A DNA stretch of 64,000 bases from Pseudoxanthomonas helianthi (GTDB lineage: Bacteria; Pseudomonadota; Gammaproteobacteria; Xanthomonadales; Xanthomonadaceae): assembly GCF_017939625.1 (NCBI RefSeq), contig NZ_JAGKTC010000001.1, positions 776,519 through 840,518 of the forward strand, written 5' to 3'. Of the stretch, positions 53,481-64,000 are shown one piece after another. The notes below the pieces were generated by a model. That model worked only from the letters and a program-made list of their open reading frames with translations, was not told where the DNA came from and did no database searches. Position 1 is the first letter of the stretch; each line of letters opens with the position of its first letter. The translations under genes and the position numbers were made by a program.

Positions 53481-55778
53481 ATGCGCCGCATCCTCTTCGC
53501 CTTGTTGTGCTTTTCCCCCGCGCTCTCTTACGCACAGGCCACCACCTCGCAAAGCCTGGGCCTGTTGCCGCAACCCGAACACGTCGAACTGCGCGAGGGC
53601 CGCTTCCAGCCTGCGGCCGAAGCCAGCGTTTCCGTCAGCGGCGTCCAGGGTGCCGAGGCGCGCGACCTGGGCGAACTGGCGACGTCGATCCTGCATGAGG
53701 CCTGGGATGTACCGGTGAAGGCGCAACGCGGCGACAAGCCCGCGACGCTGAGCCTGCAACTGCGTCCCGACGCGCAGGCCAACAGTGAAGGCTATTCGCT
53801 GGAAGTCGATGCGCAAGGCCTGCGCCTGTCCGCGCGGACCGCGGCCGGCTTGTTCTACGGCCTGCAGACGCTGCGCCAGCTGGCCAAGCCGGGCAGCCGC
53901 GAAGCGGGCATTCCCGCGCTGCGCATCGACGATGCGCCGCGCTTCGGCTATCGCGGCCTGATGCTGGACTCGGCGCGGCACATGCAGCCGCTCGACTACA
54001 TCAAGCGCCATCTCGATCTGATGGCGCGCTACAAGTTCAACACCCTGCACTGGCACCTGACCGACGACCAGGGCTGGCGCCTGGAGATCAAGCGTTTTCC
54101 GAAGCTGGCCAAGATCAGCGCCTACCGCAAGGAGACCATCGTCGGCCGCAACTTCGATCCCTACGTCGGCGACGGCAAGCCCTATGGCGGCTACTACACC
54201 CAGGCGCAGGCCCGCGAGATCGTCGAATACGCGAAACAGCGCCACATCACCGTGATTCCGGAAATCGACATGCCCGGGCACATGGTCGCCGCACTGGCCG
54301 CATATCCGGAGCTGGGCTGCACGCCGGGTCCGTTCGAAACGCTGACCATCTGGGGCGTGTCCGACGACGTGCTGTGCCCGAGCGAGCAGACCTTCGCGTT
54401 CGTCACCGGCGTGCTGGCCGAAGTGATGCAGGTGTTCCCGTCGAAGTACGTCCATGTCGGGGGCGATGAAGCCCCGGTCGTGCGCTGGCAGCAGAGCGCA
54501 CTGGCACAGGAGATCATCCGCCGGGAGAAGCTGAAGGACGAACACGCACTGCAAGGCTGGTTCCTGCGCCGGGTCGAGAAGTTCGTCAACGCGAATGGGC
54601 GCAAGATCATCGGCTGGGACGAGATCCTCGACGGCACGCCTTCGCGCACCGCCACGGTGATGTCGTGGCGCGGCATGGCCGGCGGCATCAAGGCCGCGCA
54701 GCTCGGCCACGACGTGGTGATGTCGCCGACCGACTATGCCTACCTCGACTACTGCGAAGGCAAGCCGCCGCGTGAGCCGGACTGCATGGTCGGCTACTTG
54801 CCGCTGAAGCAGGTGTACGCGTTCGAACCGGTGCCGGCGTCGCTGACCCCGGAACAGGCCAGGCACATCCTCGGCGGGCAGGCCAACCTGTGGACTGAGT
54901 ATGTGACCAGCACCGAACAGACCGAGGCGAAATACTGGCCGCGCGCGCTGGCCGTGGCCGACGTGACCTGGGCGCCGAGCGCGGCGCGCGACTGGAACGG
55001 CTTCCAGCAACGCATGGGTGCGCAACTGGCGACGCTGGACCGGCTGAAGGTCCACTATCGCATTCCCGAAGTGCGCGGACTGGAAGCCGACGTGCTGAGC
55101 CTGCAGCCGAAGACGACGCTGGCGCTGTCCACGCCGATTCCGGGCGCGACGATCCGCTACACCACCGACGGCAGCGAGCCGACCGCGCAGTCGCCACAGT
55201 ACACCGGCCCGATCGAACTGGCGCTGGTACCCACGGGCACCCAGGTCAACGCGCGCGCCTTCCTCGCCGACGGCCGCAGCAGCGTCGTCTCCAGCGCGAA
55301 TTTCCGCCAGGCGACATTGCGCCCGGCGGCGAAGGTCGATGCGCGCAAGCTGCAGGCCGGCCTGAACCGCCGCTACTACGAAGGCAGCGTGCTCAAGGTG
55401 GCCGGACTGGAGACATTGCCCGTGGTGCGCGCCGACGTCGCGCCGGCCATCGCGATCCCCGAACAGGCGCGCCCGGAAGCCTTCGGCCTGCGCTTCGACG
55501 GCTACCTGCGCGTGTCGGCCGATGCGATCTATCGCTTCGTGCTGGACAGCGACGATGGATCGGTGCTGCGCATCGACGGCGAAACCGTCATCGACCGCGA
55601 TGGCGGCCGCAGCCCCGGCGAGTCGTACGGCAGCGCCGCGTTGTCGGCCGGCCTGCATCGCATCGACCTGGACTATTTCCAGGGCGGTGGCGGCCGCTCG
55701 TTGGGCCTGAAGATCGGTCGTGAAGGCGAAGCGCCGCAAGCGGTCGCGGCTGACGCGCTGTTGCACGCGCGCAACTGA
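53481..55778 (+). CDS. Beta-N-acetylhexosaminidase, GH20, with PA14-like domain
   Basis: 765 residues, signal peptide ending ALSYAQ. An N-terminal GH20b domain (about 25-150) precedes the barrel: GYRGLMLDSARHMQPLDYIK, LHWHLTDDQGWRLEIKRFP, PEIDMPGHMVAAL, and the catalytic pair Asp329-Glu330 in HVGGDEAP. After the barrel (about 510) comes a chitobiase-type C-terminal beta domain (TIRYTTDGSEPT). A PA14-like domain follows at about 635-765 (GLRFDGYLRVSADAIYRFVLDSDDGSVLRIDGE, shown by its DSDDGS core). The enzyme releases beta-GlcNAc or beta-GalNAc by substrate-assisted catalysis. It follows GH109 after a probable terminator, so it may have its own promoter. Confidence 0.94.
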   Translation: MRRILFALLCFSPALSYAQATTSQSLGLLPQPEHVELREGRFQPAAEASVSVSGVQGAEARDLGELATSILHEAWDVPVKAQRGDKPATLSLQLRPDAQANSEGYSLEVDAQGLRLSARTAAGLFYGLQTLRQLAKPGSREAGIPALRIDDAPRFGYRGLMLDSARHMQPLDYIKRHLDLMARYKFNTLHWHLTDDQGWRLEIKRFPKLAKISAYRKETIVGRNFDPYVGDGKPYGGYYTQAQAREIVEYAKQRHITVIPEIDMPGHMVAALAAYPELGCTPGPFETLTIWGVSDDVLCPSEQTFAFVTGVLAEVMQVFPSKYVHVGGDEAPVVRWQQSALAQEIIRREKLKDEHALQGWFLRRVEKFVNANGRKIIGWDEILDGTPSRTATVMSWRGMAGGIKAAQLGHDVVMSPTDYAYLDYCEGKPPREPDCMVGYLPLKQVYAFEPVPASLTPEQARHILGGQANLWTEYVTSTEQTEAKYWPRALAVADVTWAPSAARDWNGFQQRMGAQLATLDRLKVHYRIPEVRGLEADVLSLQPKTTLALSTPIPGATIRYTTDGSEPTAQSPQYTGPIELALVPTGTQVNARAFLADGRSSVVSSANFRQATLRPAAKVDARKLQAGLNRRYYEGSVLKVAGLETLPVVRADVAPAIAIPEQARPEAFGLRFDGYLRVSADAIYRFVLDSDDGSVLRIDGETVIDRDGGRSPGESYGSAALSAGLHRIDLDYFQGGGGRSLGLKIGREGEAPQAVAADALLHARN

Positions 55779-55794
55779 TCCAACACGCGATGTG

Positions 55795-55815
55795 GGAGCG
55801 GGCAGGGCCCGCTCC
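55795..55815. repeat. Palindrome between convergent GH20 and GH92 genes
   Basis: GGAGCGGGC, loop AGG, GCCCGCTCC, within TGTGGGAGCGGGCAG: a single-stem member of the GTGGGAGCG family. It sits in a 64-base convergent gap and may terminate both genes, though there is no T-run. Confidence 0.75.
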
Positions 55816-55842
55816 TACGAGAAGAGCCGTTCAAGGTTCGGC

Positions 55843-58800
55843 CTACCTCAGCGGCACGTCGTAAAGCGTTTCCAGCGGCGGCTGGAAGCGGAAGCTGTAA
55901 TGCCACCACTCCATCGGATAGTTGCTGAAGCCCTGCGCATCCATTGCCTTGAGCAGCAACTGGCGATTGGCACGTTGTTCGGCGCTGACTTCCGCCGAAT
56001 CGGTGTTGGCGCGGGTGCCGAAGTAGTCGAAATCGGTACCCATGTCCAACGGTTTGCAGTTGGCGCCGCGCGCATCGCACTTGAGTACGGTGAGGTCGAC
56101 GGTGCCGCCGCGGCTGTGGCCTGATACCGGCGCGATGTATTCGCCAAGCAGCTTCGACTTGTCCAGGTCCGGGTAATGCGCGGCCTTGGTGCGCTGGTCG
56201 TCCAGGTCGGCTGCCCAGCGCACGAAATGGGCCACCGCACGCGCGGGGCGGTAGCAGTCGAACACGCGCAGGCGCATGTGCCGTTCGCGCAGCGCCGCAT
56301 CCACCCGCGCCAGGGCCTCGGCCGCTTCGCGCTTCAGCCAGCAGCGCGGGGCTTCGTAGCCATCGACCGGCGCACCGACGAAGTTGTCGCTGCCGGCATA
56401 GGCGATCGACTGCGACATGTCCGGCACCAGGCTGCGGATATCGGCCATGCCCGCCTGTTCCATCGTGGTCGCGTCCGAAATGCGGGGTGTCTTGTCCGCT
56501 TGCGCAGACATCGGCGCACCGAGCAGCTCGATTTCGGCCAACGAGAACCGCGTCGGATCGCTGGCCGCGCTGACGACCAGTCGGTACTGGCGATAGCTGG
56601 CGGGCGAAGCCAATCGGAACGGACGCGTATAGCGCGTCCATTCGAAGGTCTCGCCGTTGCGGCGATCCAGCGTTTTCCAGTCCTTGCCGTCATCGGATCC
56701 TTCCAGCGTCCATGCAGTCGGATGGCCGCTGCTGTTGCCCGAAGTCAGCGTATAGAAACTCACCGCTTCGGCCGGCTTCTTGTCGAAAACATAGACCACC
56801 GATACCGGCGATTTGGCGGAGAAGACCGATTCGGTCCCCGAAGTATCGTCGAACAATGCACCCGCCTTCACGCCGGGAACGCTGCTCGAAGCAATGCCCC
56901 GACCCGGGCCGGTGAGATCGGCCAACGGCGCGGCGGGCGCATCGCCGGCGGTCAGCGACGGCGGCAGCGCTGCGGCATCACGTCCCCACGTGCCGGGTTT
57001 CGCCGACATCCTGAACTCGACCTCGCCGCCTTGCGCGAGCAGGCGATGCGGAATGAAAGTCCTGTCCCATGCCTTGCCGTTCACGGTGAGACCGGCGACG
57101 TAGATGTTTTCGCGGCTGTTGTCCGGCGCGCTGATCACCAGCTTCTTCCCGTTGTCCAGCCGGACGGTCGCCCTGGTGAACAGCGGCGAGCCGATCACCA
57201 GGTTCTCGCTGCCCATCTGCAGCGGATAGAAGCCCAGCGCGGCGAACAGCCACCAGGCCGACGACTCGCCGTTGTCCTCGTCGCCGGGATAGCCCTGGCC
57301 GATCTCCGAACCGATGTACATCCGCGCCAGCACTTCACGCACGATTTCCTGCGTGCGCCACGGCTGCCCGGTGTACAGGTACATCCACGGCACGTGGTGC
57401 GCGACCTGATTGGAGAAACCCCACTGACCCATGCGTATGTCGCGCGCTTCGACCATCTCGTGGATCACGCCGCCATAGGAACCCGGATGGCCCGCGGTTT
57501 CCGGCGTGGCGAAGTACGCATCCAGCTTGCGCGCCAACGCATCGCGGCCGCCGTACAGATTGGCCAGGCCCTGGCCATCGTGCGGGGCGAGAAAGGCGAA
57601 ACCCCAGCCATTGGTTTCGGTGTAGTCGTGCTCGTGGCCCCAGACTTCCGGGTTGTAGTCGCGGGCCGGCGACTTCCACTTGCCGTCGAGGGCACGGCCC
57701 TGGAAGAAACCGATCGCCGGATCGAACATGCGCACGTAGTTGAGCGCACGGTTGCGGTAGTAGGCGCTTTCCGCTTCCAGCCGTTCGCGCGCGACCGGCG
57801 GCGCCGGATCCTTCGCCATCGCCGCCAGCATGTTGGCGATGCCGTAGTCGTTGATGTAACCCTCCAGCGCCCACGACACGCCTTCGCCGACCGAGCTCGG
57901 GGTGTAGCCGATGAACGGCGCGACCTCCATGCCCTTGCGGCCGACGTTGTCGTTCGGCGGCACGACGGCGGCGTTCCTGATCGTCGCACGGTAGAGCGCG
58001 GCGGCATCGATGCCGGCCACGCCCTTCACGTAGGCATCGGCGAAGGATGCATCCGAACTGGTGCCGGTCATCAGGTTGGCATAGCCCGGCGATGACCAGC
58101 GCGGCACCCAGCCGCCGTCGCGGTAGTGCTGCAGGAAGCCGTCGACCATCTCCGCGGCCTGGCGCGGCGCCAGCAACGATTGCGCCGCCCACACCGTGCG
58201 ATAGGTATCCCAGAAGCCGTTGTTGACGTAGACCTTGCCAGCGGCGATGGCTGCGCCGGTCTTCGTCTCGGTCGTGCCTGGCGGGATGTCCTTGCTGGCG
58301 GAGGACTGCACCGCATGGCGCCAGACCGGGGCCGCGTTGCTGCCGGTATTCTCGTGCGCCGAGTTCGGATACAGGAACAGCCGGTACAGGTTGGAATACA
58401 GCGTGGTCAGCTGATCCGGCGTGGCGCCGTCGACCTCGATCACCCCCAGCTTCTCGTCCCACGCGCGCTGCGCCCGCTCACGCACGTCGTCGAAACCGTC
58501 CTGGTCGGCGATTTCCAGTTCGAGGTTGCGCCTGGCCTGCTCGACGCTGATCAGCGAAGTGGCGATGCGCATGCCGACGCTGCGCTGCGGGCCGGCCTCG
58601 AAGCGGAAGTAGCCCGCCACCTTGCTGCGCTTGCCGCCTTTCGGCCCATCGGTGGCGACCAGCTTGCCGCCGGCCGTTACCGGGCGGTCGAACTTCGCAT
58701 AGACGAACATGCGGGCCGCGCCGTTGGACAAGCCACTGCGCGTGTCGGTGTAGCCGGTCAATTCGCCGCTTTGGGGCGAGAGGGTCAAACCGCCCTGGTC

Positions 58801-59991
58801 GGTGACGTTATCGAAGATCAGGCTCGCGTCATCGCCGGGGAAAGTGAAGCGGAACATCGCGGCATGGTCGGTCGGCGCGATTTCGGCGACGATGCCGTTG
58901 TCCAGCTTGACCTGGTAGTAGTGCGCGCGTGCGATCTCGTTTTCGTGGCGGAAAGCCACGGCGCGTTCGGCACGATTGGCGCTGGGCACGCCGCTGGCCA
59001 GCGACGGCATGACCTGGAAGGTCTGGCGATCGCCCATCCACGGGCTGGTTTCGTGGCTCAGGGCGAGCGCTTCCAGCTTCGGCCGGTTGTTCTCGTCGTT
59101 GCGCCTGGCGTATTCGTAGAACCAGCTCAACGAACCGGCGTCGGTGACCGGCGCCCAGAAGTTGAAGCCATGCGGCATTGCCGTGGCGGGGATGTTGTTG
59201 CCGCGCGAGAAGTCGCCGCTCGAATTGGTGCCGCGGGTGGTCAGCACGTGGTCGCTGGGACGCTTCGACGGGGCGGAACGTGCCACGTGGGCAATGCTGC
59301 CGTCGAAGATACTGATGTCGTCGATCCAGCCGCGGAACGCGCTGGGCCCGAACGGACTCTGGTAGCCGACCAGGATCTGGTCGATGGTCTTGCCCGCGGC
59401 CACCTCGCCGATGCGCGACTGCAGATGGTTCCACTGCTGCGTGTACAGCGACTTCGAATCGCCCTGCCCGCGCGGCGACAGCACGAAACCGTGCTGGTCG
59501 CGTGCACCGAGATCGGACAGCCGCGTGCCATCGGTGAAATGCAGGTCGATCGCCACGTAGGTCGCCGGATAGCGTTGATCGGCCTCTTCGAACTGCGGGA
59601 AGACTTGATAGGACAACTCGGTCGCGGCGGTGACCGGGATGGAGACATCGAACAGTTTCGTGTCCGCACGACCACCGGCGGAGGCTGTCGTCTTTCCGGA
59701 ATATCCCAGTGCATGCACCCCGGTGAACCCGACACGGGGGCGTGCGGTATACGCGGTCTCGGGACCATCGCCCGCACGGACATCGAGACTCGCATCTTCG
59801 GCACGCTCCGCCGGGCCTTCGCCGACCTGCGGTTCGCCGGTTTCGAAGGATGTCCAGAATCGGGGTGTCGACGGAGCTGGCGCTGCCCGGCCCGGCGCTT
59901 CGGCTTGCGTCGCGCAGGCGGCCAGCGCGGTGGCGAGGACGGCAACCGTCAGCACTCGACGATGCGTGGAGAACAACGGTACGGAAACCAT
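55843..59991 (-). CDS. GH92 alpha-mannosidase fused to a VanX-type D-Ala-D-Ala dipeptidase domain
   Basis: 1382 residues in one uninterrupted frame from ATG 59991 (GGAGG upstream; the GTG at 60003 is too close to it). Lipobox ATALAAC. Parts in order: an N-terminal beta domain with a bound-family insert (about 45-230); the GH92 body (about 240-1000), with NNGFWDTYRTVWAAQ, QVAHHVPWMY and the acidic GDEDNGESSAWW; and an F5/8-like domain (about 1030-1158). From Met1161 comes a complete M15D dipeptidase: Arg1248 (CYRPA), zinc ligands His1292 and Asp1299 (SGHSRGGTVDL), Glu1361 and His1364 (MEWWHY). GH92 removes alpha-mannose from N-glycans. The dipeptidase part lacks its own signal. It follows the GH2 gene by 22 bases. 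Confidence 0.9.
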   Translation of the reverse strand: MVSVPLFSTHRRVLTVAVLATALAACATQAEAPGRAAPAPSTPRFWTSFETGEPQVGEGPAERAEDASLDVRAGDGPETAYTARPRVGFTGVHALGYSGKTTASAGGRADTKLFDVSIPVTAATELSYQVFPQFEEADQRYPATYVAIDLHFTDGTRLSDLGARDQHGFVLSPRGQGDSKSLYTQQWNHLQSRIGEVAAGKTIDQILVGYQSPFGPSAFRGWIDDISIFDGSIAHVARSAPSKRPSDHVLTTRGTNSSGDFSRGNNIPATAMPHGFNFWAPVTDAGSLSWFYEYARRNDENNRPKLEALALSHETSPWMGDRQTFQVMPSLASGVPSANRAERAVAFRHENEIARAHYYQVKLDNGIVAEIAPTDHAAMFRFTFPGDDASLIFDNVTDQGGLTLSPQSGELTGYTDTRSGLSNGAARMFVYAKFDRPVTAGGKLVATDGPKGGKRSKVAGYFRFEAGPQRSVGMRIATSLISVEQARRNLELEIADQDGFDDVRERAQRAWDEKLGVIEVDGATPDQLTTLYSNLYRLFLYPNSAHENTGSNAAPVWRHAVQSSASKDIPPGTTETKTGAAIAAGKVYVNNGFWDTYRTVWAAQSLLAPRQAAEMVDGFLQHYRDGGWVPRWSSPGYANLMTGTSSDASFADAYVKGVAGIDAAALYRATIRNAAVVPPNDNVGRKGMEVAPFIGYTPSSVGEGVSWALEGYINDYGIANMLAAMAKDPAPPVARERLEAESAYYRNRALNYVRMFDPAIGFFQGRALDGKWKSPARDYNPEVWGHEHDYTETNGWGFAFLAPHDGQGLANLYGGRDALARKLDAYFATPETAGHPGSYGGVIHEMVEARDIRMGQWGFSNQVAHHVPWMYLYTGQPWRTQEIVREVLARMYIGSEIGQGYPGDEDNGESSAWWLFAALGFYPLQMGSENLVIGSPLFTRATVRLDNGKKLVISAPDNSRENIYVAGLTVNGKAWDRTFIPHRLLAQGGEVEFRMSAKPGTWGRDAAALPPSLTAGDAPAAPLADLTGPGRGIASSSVPGVKAGALFDDTSGTESVFSAKSPVSVVYVFDKKPAEAVSFYTLTSGNSSGHPTAWTLEGSDDGKDWKTLDRRNGETFEWTRYTRPFRLASPASYRQYRLVVSAASDPTRFSLAEIELLGAPMSAQADKTPRISDATTMEQAGMADIRSLVPDMSQSIAYAGSDNFVGAPVDGYEAPRCWLKREAAEALARVDAALRERHMRLRVFDCYRPARAVAHFVRWAADLDDQRTKAAHYPDLDKSKLLGEYIAPVSGHSRGGTVDLTVLKCDARGANCKPLDMGTDFDYFGTRANTDSAEVSAEQRANRQLLLKAMDAQGFSNYPMEWWHYSFRFQPPLETLYDVPLR

Positions 59992-60013
59992 GGCTTCTGA
60001 CACCTCCGAGGGT

Positions 60014-62668
60014 TCAGCGCGCGTCGGCCAGCGAGCGCACGTGCAGGGCCTTGCGCAAGGCTTCCAGGTTCGCGTCGCTGCGCAGGGCGATCACGACCTG
60101 TTCGCCGGGAACCAGGTCGAAGGCATTGTCGGACAACTGCACCTCGGCGTCGCCGAAATCCAGCCACACCGCCCGCGCGAACTTCCGCGCGGAAACGGTC
60201 ACGCGATAGCCGTTCCCGGCCTTCTGGATTTTGGCCTGCAGGCCGGGCTCCGGCAGCGCCAGCGACTTCGCCGCGTCGAAATACACCACGCCGCGCGACA
60301 CGGGTTCGCCGGCGACGTGCAGCTCGAACACCGCCACGCTGCGCTTCGGGTCGGCGCCATGCAGAAGGTCGGCATCGACGAACTTGCCGACGGCCTTCGA
60401 CGACAGCGCCGGCAGTTCGTCCATGCGCTTCTCCTCGTGCAGCAGCTTGCCGTCCATGTCGAACACGCGCAGGCGCAATTCGCCCTTCAGCGTCTTGTTG
60501 CGGTCGTTGAGCAGCGACACCGTGGTCGTGCCGTCCTTGCGCAACGCGGCCACCGCGACCGGCGCGAAGAAGCGGCGAGCATGGTAGTGCAGCGCCTTCC
60601 AGCGGCCGTAGTAGTCCACGCTGGACCACGATGCGCCCGGCCACACGTCGTTGAGCTGCCAGTACAGCGAGCCCATGGTGTACGGCCGCGAGGCGCGATG
60701 GTGCAGCGCCGCCAGTTCGATGCCGTCGGCCTGCATCACCTGGCTCAGGTAGATGAAGTCGGCGAAGTCGCGTGGCTTGCCGTATTCCCGCTCGACATAC
60801 AACATCAACCGCGTGTTGCCCTCGCCGGCCATGAACTTCTGGTGGGCGCGGATCACCGGGCCATCGACGGATTGCTCGTCGCGCTTGGCGAACGCATCGA
60901 CGGTCGGCTGCGCCGGCCATGCCTGCAGGCCGAATTCGGACATGAAGCGCGGCGTTTCGTCCAGATAGGCGACCGGCGGATGCGCGGGGCCGCCCCACAC
61001 GTCCCAGTAATGCTTGTCGCCGCGCTTCGAATCGTTGGCCTTCTCGTCGAGGTCGTTGCTCGGCGAACTGGACCAGTACGGCACGCCCAGGCCTTCCTCG
61101 GCCACGACCTGGCGCAGGTCATGCCCGAACAAATCGACGTAACCTTGCCAGACCTTCGCGGCGAACACGGGGTCGGCTTCCACCAGCTTCTTGCGGTGGC
61201 CCCAGTCCTTCCATGCGGTTTCTTCCTCGTTGTTGCCGTTCCACAGCACGATGCTGGCGTAGTGGCGCAGGCGGCGCACGTTGTCGCGCGCCTCGGCAAC
61301 GACGTTGGCGCGGAATGCGGGATCGTAGGCCGGCGGCATGCCGCCGCCGAACATGAAGTCCTGCCACACCAGCAGGCCCAGCTCGTCGGTCAGGTCGAAG
61401 AAGTCGTCGGATTCGTAATAGCCGCCGCCCCAGTTGCGGACCATGTTCATGTTGGCGTCGCGCGCCGCCTGCAGGTCGCGGCGCAGGCGTTCGCGGGTGA
61501 CACGCGCCGGGAAGGCGTCGAACGGGATCACGTTGGCGCCCTTGGCGAACACCGGCACGCCGTTGATGACGAAGGCGAAACCCTGGCCGCCATCGTCGTC
61601 CTTGTCGCGGCGCAGCTCGACGGTGCGCAGGCCGGTCTTCAACTCGGTGCGCAACGTCTCCCCACGCGCATCGACGACGCGGGCGGCGAAGCGATAGCGC
61701 GCCTGTTCGCCATAACCGACCGGCCACCAACGACGGGGCTGGTCGATGCCGGCCTGCAACGACAACTCGTTGTCGCCGGCCTTCAGCTCGAAGTCGCGAC
61801 GTAGCGTGTCCACGCGCTTGCCGTCGGGGTCGACGATGTCGATTTCGACTGCGGCATGCTGCGCAACGTCGCTGGCTACCGACAGCGCAAGCGCGAGCTC
61901 GGCTCGTTTCTCATCCAGCGCCTTCGTGCTCACCACGAAATCGGCGATGCGGGTATCGTTCCAGCTTTCCACCCGGATCGACCGCCAGATCCCGGCGGTG
62001 ACGTAACGCGGACCCCAGTCCCAGCCATAGTGGTAACCGGGCTTGCGCGCGAAGTTGCCGGTCATCGCGTCCTTCGGCTCGTCGCCGTAGGGCGACGGAT
62101 AGTTGCCGGCGATCCTGTTCGGCATGGCCAGCACCTGCGGCAGCAGTTTGCGGATCGGGGAACGGAACACGATGCGCAGTTCGTTGCCCTGCGCCTTCAG
62201 CAGGCCATCGACCGGCACGCGCCAGGTGCGGAAGTAATTGTCGGCATCGAGGATCTTGCGACCGTTGAGTTCGACGGTCGCAAACGTGTCCAGGCCATCG
62301 AACACCAGGGCGGCGTGCTTGCGCTGCAGCGTGGCGGCATCGACGTCGAAGCGGCCTTCGTATTCCCAGTCGGCCAGCCCGATCCATTGCAGGCCGGCTT
62401 CCGGCGCGCCGACATAGGGATCGGGGATCAGCTTGTTGGCGAACAGATCGGTATGCACGGAACCGGGTACCGTCGCCGCGTGCCAGTCCACGGCGTCGCG
62501 ATGCGCTTCTGCCTGCGCGTCGCCGGGGACGAGGCGGAACCGCCATTCGCCGCCCACCTCGCGGGCGTCGTATGGACTCGCGGTCGCTGCCAGCGCGGCG
62601 GCGGCGAGCACCACGGCCGCCAACAATCGCAGGAACGACGAAGCGCGGAGGGGAGAGGTTCGGGTCAT
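60014..62668 (-). CDS. Beta-mannosidase, GH2
   Basis: 884 residues, signal peptide ending ALAATA. Sugar-binding, immunoglobulin-like and barrel domains occur in the beta-mannosidase order: WIGLADWEYEGRF, DGLDTFATVELNG, ARKPGYHYGWDWGPRYVTAGIWR, then acid/base Glu in LWNGNNEEETAW and nucleophile Glu in RFMSEFGLQAWP. The YGWDWGPR block separates beta-mannosidases from beta-galactosidases. It would remove the single beta-linked mannose of the N-glycan core after GH92 has stripped alpha-mannose, and the two genes are in one operon. Its ATG overlaps the stop of the halogenase-like gene (ATGA). Confidence 0.94.
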   Translation of the reverse strand: MTRTSPLRASSFLRLLAAVVLAAAALAATASPYDAREVGGEWRFRLVPGDAQAEAHRDAVDWHAATVPGSVHTDLFANKLIPDPYVGAPEAGLQWIGLADWEYEGRFDVDAATLQRKHAALVFDGLDTFATVELNGRKILDADNYFRTWRVPVDGLLKAQGNELRIVFRSPIRKLLPQVLAMPNRIAGNYPSPYGDEPKDAMTGNFARKPGYHYGWDWGPRYVTAGIWRSIRVESWNDTRIADFVVSTKALDEKRAELALALSVASDVAQHAAVEIDIVDPDGKRVDTLRRDFELKAGDNELSLQAGIDQPRRWWPVGYGEQARYRFAARVVDARGETLRTELKTGLRTVELRRDKDDDGGQGFAFVINGVPVFAKGANVIPFDAFPARVTRERLRRDLQAARDANMNMVRNWGGGYYESDDFFDLTDELGLLVWQDFMFGGGMPPAYDPAFRANVVAEARDNVRRLRHYASIVLWNGNNEEETAWKDWGHRKKLVEADPVFAAKVWQGYVDLFGHDLRQVVAEEGLGVPYWSSSPSNDLDEKANDSKRGDKHYWDVWGGPAHPPVAYLDETPRFMSEFGLQAWPAQPTVDAFAKRDEQSVDGPVIRAHQKFMAGEGNTRLMLYVEREYGKPRDFADFIYLSQVMQADGIELAALHHRASRPYTMGSLYWQLNDVWPGASWSSVDYYGRWKALHYHARRFFAPVAVAALRKDGTTTVSLLNDRNKTLKGELRLRVFDMDGKLLHEEKRMDELPALSSKAVGKFVDADLLHGADPKRSVAVFELHVAGEPVSRGVVYFDAAKSLALPEPGLQAKIQKAGNGYRVTVSARKFARAVWLDFGDAEVQLSDNAFDLVPGEQVVIALRSDANLEALRKALHVRSLADAR

Positions 62669-64000
62669 GGTTGGGGCGCCTTGCAGTTTTGGTCGATGAA
62701 GGCCTGGTGCGAGGGCATCGCCGCCACGCCGCTGGCCACGGCCTGGCGTGCGCGCTCGACGAATTGCACCAGCTTGTCTTCGGGCATCTGATCCACGATC
62801 GGATGGTAACCGCGGGGGATGATGCGTTGGCCGAGCATCACCTGGACCCAGCTCGGCAACGCGAAGAAGTCCTCGGCGTTGCGGAAGTAGCGGCCGTCCA
62901 GCCGGAACAACTCAACGGTCTCGCGCAGAGTGTCGGGGATCGACATCGTGCGGCACTGGTCCCAGAACGCCGTGTCGTCGCGTTCGGTCGCGTTGTAGTG
63001 CAGGACCAGGAAATCGCGGACCCGCTCGTGTTCGAAAGCGGATTCGCGATTGAGGCGGTCGGACAGCATCGGGGCGAAATCGCGATCCGGAAACAGGCCG
63101 AGCAGACGCTGGATGCCCGATTGGGCCAGGTAGATGCTGGTCGATTCCAGCGGCTCCATGAAGCCGCCGGCCAGGCCCACGGCAACGACGTTCTTCTCCC
63201 AGAACTTCCTGCGCCTGCCGGGTGTGAAGCGCAACGGCCGGGGCTCGGCCAGTGCGCGCCCGTCGAGGTTGGCGAGCAAGGTCGCCGCAGCCTCGTCGTC
63301 GCTGATGTGCTGGCTGGAATACACGTAACCGTTGCCCACGCGATGCTGCGTCGGAATGCGCCATTGCCAGCCCGCCGCCTGCGCGGTCACGCGCGTGTAC
63401 GGGGTCAGCGGCCCGGCGCTAGCACTGGGCACGACCATTGCGCGGTCGCAGGGCAGCCACTGGTTCCAGGCTTCGTACCCCGCCTTCAGGGTTTGCTCGA
63501 TCAGCAAGCCGCGGAAACCCGAGCAGTCGATGAACAACTCGCCTTCGACGCGCTCGCCGCCTTCCAGCACCACCGCTTCGATGAAGCCGTCCTCGCCGCG
63601 CTGGACCACGTCGACGATCTTGCCTTCGATGCGCTTCACGCCCCTGTGCTCGGCAACGCCACGCAGGTAACGCGCATACAGCCCCGCATCGAACTGGTAG
63701 CCGTAGGCGATGTCCGCCAACGGCGATCCCGGCGCCGCGTCGGCCGGGCTGACCATGAACCTGTCCAGCGGCGCAGCCGCAGTGGGCAGCGAATAGGCGC
63801 CGATCTCCGGCGCGCGGCCGGCCAGGAACAGCTTCAACCAATACTGGTGGAACGGAAGCGGGCCCAGCGAACGTCCGATCGTGCCGAAGCCGTGCACATA
63901 GCTGTCGCCGATGCGGCCCCAGTCGTTGAACTGGATGCCGAGCTTGAACGTGCCCTGCGTCTGCACGACGAAGTCGGCTTCGCGGATGCCCAGCACCTGG
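62665..64000 (-). CDS. Tryptophan-halogenase-like flavoprotein (5' end outside window)
   Basis: The frame is open to the window edge; 444 residues are visible and the N-terminal FAD motif (GxGxxG) and the catalytic Lys region are missing. The family is identified from the WxWxIP motif (GWQWRIPTQHR), LFIDCSGFRG, VVAVGLAGGFMEPLESTSIY and the C-terminal HLLYPEDKLV-like region. FADH2-dependent halogenases chlorinate indoles. In Xanthomonas-type bacteria close relatives often sit in carbohydrate-use clusters beside TonB receptors, where halogenation has not been shown. It is the upstream gene of the GH2-GH92 operon and is translationally coupled to GH2. A TonB receptor may lie just beyond the window. 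Confidence 0.9.
   Translation of the reverse strand, partial: QVLGIREADFVVQTQGTFKLGIQFNDWGRIGDSYVHGFGTIGRSLGPLPFHQYWLKLFLAGRAPEIGAYSLPTAAAPLDRFMVSPADAAPGSPLADIAYGYQFDAGLYARYLRGVAEHRGVKRIEGKIVDVVQRGEDGFIEAVVLEGGERVEGELFIDCSGFRGLLIEQTLKAGYEAWNQWLPCDRAMVVPSASAGPLTPYTRVTAQAAGWQWRIPTQHRVGNGYVYSSQHISDDEAAATLLANLDGRALAEPRPLRFTPGRRRKFWEKNVVAVGLAGGFMEPLESTSIYLAQSGIQRLLGLFPDRDFAPMLSDRLNRESAFEHERVRDFLVLHYNATERDDTAFWDQCRTMSIPDTLRETVELFRLDGRYFRNAEDFFALPSWVQVMLGQRIIPRGYHPIVDQMPEDKLVQFVERARQAVASGVAAMPSHQAFIDQNCKAPQP

Follow-up and report, generated by a model that had tools for sequence, protein, structure and literature searches.

A VanX-type dipeptidase domain joined in frame to a GH92 gene in Pseudoxanthomonas helianthi

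Why does a glycosidase gene run on, without a stop codon, into a D-Ala-D-Ala dipeptidase domain? This question is raised by a 64,000-nucleotide stretch of the Pseudoxanthomonas helianthi genome (hereafter the window; RefSeq assembly GCF_017939625.1, contig NZ_JAGKTC010000001.1, positions 776,519 to 840,518), in which a gene for a glycoside hydrolase family 92 (GH92) protein continues into a VanX-type domain. An initial annotation of the window had described a lipoprotein GH92 joined in frame to an intact VanX-type dipeptidase. We found that the fused gene is a single open reading frame without an internal stop at 55843..60003 on the minus strand and encodes 1386 amino acids from a GTG start. 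The initial annotation had used the ATG at 59991 on the minus strand, which is residue 5 of the GTG form and gives 1382 amino acids; residues are numbered here in the GTG form, so that its numbers equal ours minus 4.

Domains and catalytic residues of the fused protein

Pfam matches to both enzyme families, each exceeding its curated cut-off, cover the frame on the minus strand: Glyco_hydro_92N (PF17678) at residues 255-483 (58555..59241; E 3e-38, 132.4 bits), the catalytic domain Glyco_hydro_92 (PF07971) at residues 489-1000 (57004..58539; E 7.5e-140, 467.4 bits), and Peptidase_M15 (PF01427), the VanX-type D-Ala-D-Ala dipeptidase domain (M15D), at residues 1183-1372 (55888..56457; E 1.4e-38, 133.1 bits against a cut-off of 27). 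The GH92 part also scored 461.9 bits with TIGR01180, for which the cut-off is 249.55. Because two high-scoring families share one stop-free frame, the fusion is not due to chance. Between them, on the same strand, lies a region resembling carbohydrate-binding module family 32 (CBM32; 56524..56925, bounds approximate), recognized by its homology to the CBM32 of the Neobacillus novalis enzyme NnGH92 (PDB 7nsn); the Pfam scan named no domain over it. The N-terminus, read by eye, carries a lipobox-like LAAC, which agrees with the lipoprotein-type start initially annotated, and Cys30 (codon at 59914..59916, minus strand) is taken here to be the lipoprotein cysteine under the lipobox rule.

When the halves were aligned separately, as had been proposed, the GH92 part (to residue 1160) matched NnGH92 and the remainder matched the VanX of PDB 1r44. 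The general acid E796 and base D910 of the GH92 part are conserved, aligning with Glu944 and Asp1058 of NnGH92. In the VanX part, 68 of 192 aligned positions (35%) are identical to 1r44, and R71, H116, D123, E181, and H184 of that protein correspond to R1252, H1296, D1303, E1365, and H1368; these are the residues that the initial annotation had listed as Arg1248, His1292, Asp1299, Glu1361, and His1364, and all are in place. H116, D123, and H184 are presumably the zinc ligands and R71 and E181 catalytic. Y35, D68, F79, S114, and D142 of VanX are also conserved, whereas N77 and S115 are replaced. The domain scored 157.3 bits with the NCBIfam model NF033115 (resistance VanX equivalog), below the cut-off of 320, and the neighbors checked around the fused gene are glycosidase genes. 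By this score, the domain is a homologue of that equivalog and not a member of it; we refer to it as a VanX-type dipeptidase and do not call it a resistance gene.

The joint and the source of the VanX-type domain

Comparison with related DNA placed the breakpoint at 56514..56517 (minus strand). Likeness to the GH92 gene of relative L068 extends to 56514, and likeness to the VanX gene of Rhodanobacter lindaniclasticus (L032) begins at 56517 and amounts to 81.5% over 670 bases; the overlap of about four bases reads GCGC, which fits end joining with little homology, the end-joining step itself being one that we infer. The VanX signal peptide of L032 ends in SAPAPAQAD, and the window reads GAPMSAQAD in the same register. 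The segment APMSAQAD (56494..56517, minus strand), which aligns without gaps to APAPAQAD of L032 and contains Met1165, is thus a remnant of the end of that signal peptide. Since GH92-like DNA becomes VanX-like inside the VanX signal peptide, the VanX gene has lost its start and the greater part of its export signal: the fusion retains the last residues of the signal peptide, without its start codon and hydrophobic part. The methionine at the joint (Met1161 of the initial annotation) was therefore not the old VanX start, as it aligns with an alanine near the end of the L032 signal peptide. No clear ribosome-binding site was seen by eye ahead of Met1165, and no promoter-like sites were found in 55600-56700. 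A tether of approximately 20 residues links the VanX domain to the GH92 part, and a signal-peptidase-like AQA motif is left at the joint.

The GH92 genes of L068, L071, and L067 stop 2, 5, and 7 codons past a shared EIELLG, and that of the more distant L072 stops 8 codons past the aligned place. The initial annotation had reasoned that stop codons near 56511 in relatives would mark the joint as a local error or an isolated mutation. All four relatives read do stop near the joint, so the fusion is a lineage-specific event; nothing seen, however, points to a sequencing error.

VanX genes of the relatives often accompany serine hydrolases of the beta-lactamase fold (PF00144), one upstream with a DUF3471 region (hereafter A) and one downstream (hereafter B). 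VanX occurs alone, as A-VanX (L069, 725 amino acids), as VanX-B (L032, 607 amino acids counted from the first start), downstream of a different serine hydrolase (L033, Luteimonas, 609 amino acids), and as A-VanX-B (L025, L086, and L092, at least 961-1040 residues, all three reaching the edge of the examined piece). The view that VanX and DdpX are normally separate proteins needs some qualification here, since fusions of VanX to serine hydrolases recur among the relatives. VanX thus behaves as a promiscuous module, and GH92-VanX is a further architecture. In the stretches L122:3442-11224 and L069:66-8418, the A gene and the A-VanX gene, respectively, adjoin genes for TonB-dependent receptors, an arrangement that hints at a system for peptide uptake.

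A tree of 85 VanX domains was built by a quick method with a single support value, the Shimodaira–Hasegawa-like approximate likelihood ratio test (SH-aLRT), and midpoint rooting; its rows are top-scoring loci, and its architecture counts are not frequencies. The window domain falls within a set of 20 rows (SH-aLRT 98), consisting of 13 VanX-B, three VanX alone, two A-VanX, and one A-VanX-B besides the window domain; this lineage occurs mainly outside the genus, in many cases as a fusion to B. Among the architecture labels that we assigned to the rows, L033 and L082 count as A-VanX with a serine hydrolase only 28% like A, and L024 and L031, counted as alone, lie in frames of 437 and 459 residues. 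By path length, L032 and L075 (79.5% and 79.6%), both VanX-B, come closest to the window domain, which ends in LYDVPLR, where VanX-B proteins continue into B. Of 30 other rows from the genus, only L035 (VanX-B) lies inside the set; three of the remaining 29 form another set, and 26 lie across the weakly supported root. This placement suggests a probable origin of the window's VanX domain in the VanX-B lineage, through either intergeneric transfer or retention.

The place where a resident VanX would be expected is empty. In 28 of the 29 genus VanX loci examined, taken from 35 matches to VanX in the other genomes of the genus, VanX is preceded by A on the same strand. The A gene of P. helianthi (C3:186473-187666; 58%) terminates at a stop codon of its own, and the interval up to the next conserved gene, a TonB receptor, contains nothing VanX-like. 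In G063, a VanX-B gene adjoins a homologue (61%) of that same receptor. A loose tblastn search for a VanX relic around the genes for A, B, and another serine hydrolase in the P. helianthi genome gave only chance-level matches (best E 0.17), and the one VanX match in the whole genome lies in the fused gene (C1:832361-836521). The resident VanX behind A is thus missing, and the fused domain is the sole VanX copy found. Its nonsynonymous (dN) and synonymous (dS) substitution rates were 0.116 and 0.560 against L032, and 0.143-0.154 and 0.578-0.899 against four other relatives. By these rates, the domain is not decayed.

Distribution of the fusion and its explanation

The joint was searched for with residues 1030-1386 in 38 genomes of the genus (37 others). 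VanX was present in 34 of the 37, and the GH92 C-terminus matched in 20 (33-71% identical), all of which also have VanX; in these 20 the two never fell in one match but lay either on separate contigs or 188 kb or more from each other. No other match across the joint was found among the matches listed for 395 family and 397 order genomes, nor, with residues 490-1386, among those listed for 369 class and 398 phylum genomes; these samples overlap, each includes P. helianthi itself, and up to five candidates per genome were scored in the family and order searches and up to two in the class and phylum searches. In the family search, the P. helianthi fusion scored 814.9 bits and the next-best match 396.7. 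Any fusion built from comparable parts would be expected among the highest-ranking matches, although a more diverged one might have escaped. The combination is therefore as unusual as first supposed, and the titles and abstract openings of the papers listed on GH92, VanX/DdpX, and alanyl-D-alanine dipeptidase describe no GH92-VanX or VanX-serine hydrolase fusion.

We consider it probable that illegitimate recombination attached a VanX-type domain of the VanX-B-associated lineage to the GH92 gene at its 3' end, that GH92 carries and anchors the sole VanX, and that the two activities need not be coupled. Recombination would have put the domain onto an alpha-mannosidase gene of family GH92 within a cluster for glycan degradation. 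The break would have cost GH92 its stop codon and VanX its start codon and the greater part of its signal peptide, together with B if the donor was a VanX-B gene. The GH92 lipoprotein signal would now export and anchor the dipeptidase, which most likely works in the cell envelope like any zinc-dependent D-Ala-D-Ala dipeptidase, cleaving D-Ala-D-Ala or a similar dipeptide, and the GH92 part would act as an exo-mannosidase that trims mannose. GH92 most likely exports the only VanX and holds it in place, a role that requires no link between the reactions on mannose and on D-Ala-D-Ala. Several points weigh against this explanation. The fusion is known from one genome only, so that dN/dS mostly reflects the time before the fusion. 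Within the set of 20 rows, the position of the domain is weakly supported (83 for the pairing with L075, 86 for an eight-row set). The P. helianthi homologue of B stands alone (C2:633475-634452) and is only 57% like B of L032, so a former VanX-B partner cannot be shown. An AlphaFold model of residues 1015-1386 from a three-row alignment had a mean predicted local distance difference test score of 44.2, too poor to be used.

The single genome would also suit a recent accident, in which the VanX domain is a passenger that is translated without use or removed by proteolytic clipping. In the family, VanX can be dispensed with (94 of 198 genomes had no PF01427 match), and the AQA motif persists at the joint; however, the catalytic residues are conserved, substitutions are mostly silent, and codon use is alike in both halves (GC content at third codon positions 0.83 in each), so that such an accident seems possible but doubtful. 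Selection for a bifunctional enzyme, in which glycan trimming and D-Ala-D-Ala hydrolysis cooperate, for example on peptidoglycan or glycopeptide remnants, could draw on the intact catalytic sites of both halves and on the GH20, GH109, GH2, GH29, GH89, and GH3 genes elsewhere in the window. We nevertheless regard it as quite unlikely, as the joint appears in no second genome among the matches listed, the VanX of relatives accompanies serine hydrolases and, where read, TonB receptors, and we know of no step common to the substrates of a mannosidase and a dipeptidase. Linked use of glycans and peptidoglycan is possible; what speaks for it is the co-occurrence of the two domains in one protein.

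The initial annotation had suggested the loss of a stop codon between neighboring GH92 and VanX genes, and A-VanX and VanX-B in relatives do show VanX fusing readily with an adjacent gene. This origin is distinctly improbable here, because the 20 other genomes of the genus that have both genes never place GH92 near VanX, and neither a VanX start nor a full signal peptide is left at the joint. An assembly or sequencing artefact would account for an observation from one assembly, but the gene lies inside a contig that extends to at least base 1,676,679 in a four-contig, 99.89% complete genome, the joint is seamless, in frame, and free of frameshifts, and the genome holds no other VanX as the source of a mis-join; we consider an artefact very unlikely indeed. 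Returning to recombination onto a GH92 carrier, we add, tentatively and as one of the less probable possibilities, that VanX may be a plug-in module: exported D,D-dipeptidase domains would hop between carriers, with serine hydrolases on either side or, as here, a glycosidase lipoprotein, via breaks near the signal peptide, and the glycosidase carrier would have replaced the lost resident VanX to give a bifunctional envelope enzyme scavenging sugar and D-amino acids. The locus appears to show a new domain architecture near its origin, with the probable donor lineage, recipient gene, breakpoint, and empty resident place all visible. It also points to an exported VanX/serine-hydrolase module with repeated fusions, of which the literature searched, at the level given above, yielded no description, and whose substrate may be D-Ala-D-Ala peptides of peptidoglycan or something else.

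Genomic surroundings and comparison with known systems

By domain scan, the fused gene is flanked by a convergent GH20 hexosaminidase gene (53481..55778, plus strand) and, directly upstream, a GH2 beta-mannosidase-like gene (60014..62668, minus strand). GH109, GH29, GH89, and GH3 genes are also present in the window, and the broad set at 33470-55778 (GH3, GH29, GH89, GH109, and GH20) suggests a cluster for complex glycans. A gene of the tryptophan-halogenase family lies ahead of GH2 and GH92 at 62665-63996 and again at L067:1-867 in the related genome G213, whose contig ends soon 3' of its GH92 gene. GH2 precedes GH92 also in L067 and L068 but not in the pieces L071 and L072. In G204, GH92 is convergent with a gene that reads by eye as groEL, and the GH20 gene is on the far side of GH2. 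Because the 3' side thus differs (GH20 here, groEL in G204), the 3' surroundings of GH92 were rearranged in one lineage, which would fit an insertion there. Between the convergent GH92-VanX and GH20 genes, at 55792-55818, is an inverted pair of GTAGGAGCGGGC, one copy with a mismatch; it was considered as a recombination site, but this is its sole occurrence in the window at up to one mismatch, and no inference was drawn.

The best solved relative of the GH92 part is NnGH92 (1117.3 bits), to which the query cut at residue 1160 aligns up to NnGH92 residue 1316. According to its report (PMC10167667), this multi-domain alpha-1,2-mannosidase resembles the fused protein in having a GH92 catalytic domain with acid and base followed by a CBM32, whereas it ends in a four-helix bundle at the place where the fused protein has VanX. 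The same text gives 81% remaining activity for NnGH92 without the bundle and 11% when CBM32 is removed too, which suggests that the end behind CBM32 tolerates change. With the VanX of Enterococcus (1r44; MEROPS M15D; PF01427), the alignment covers the whole domain, and zinc ligands and catalytic residues are common to both; that VanX, however, is a protein of its own, whereas the 35% identical domain here is the tail of another enzyme. In the VanX-serine hydrolase fusions of Rhodanobacter (L032), Luteimonas (L033), L025, and L069, VanX is likewise one module of a larger protein, but the partner there is a beta-lactamase-fold hydrolase and here a glycosidase.

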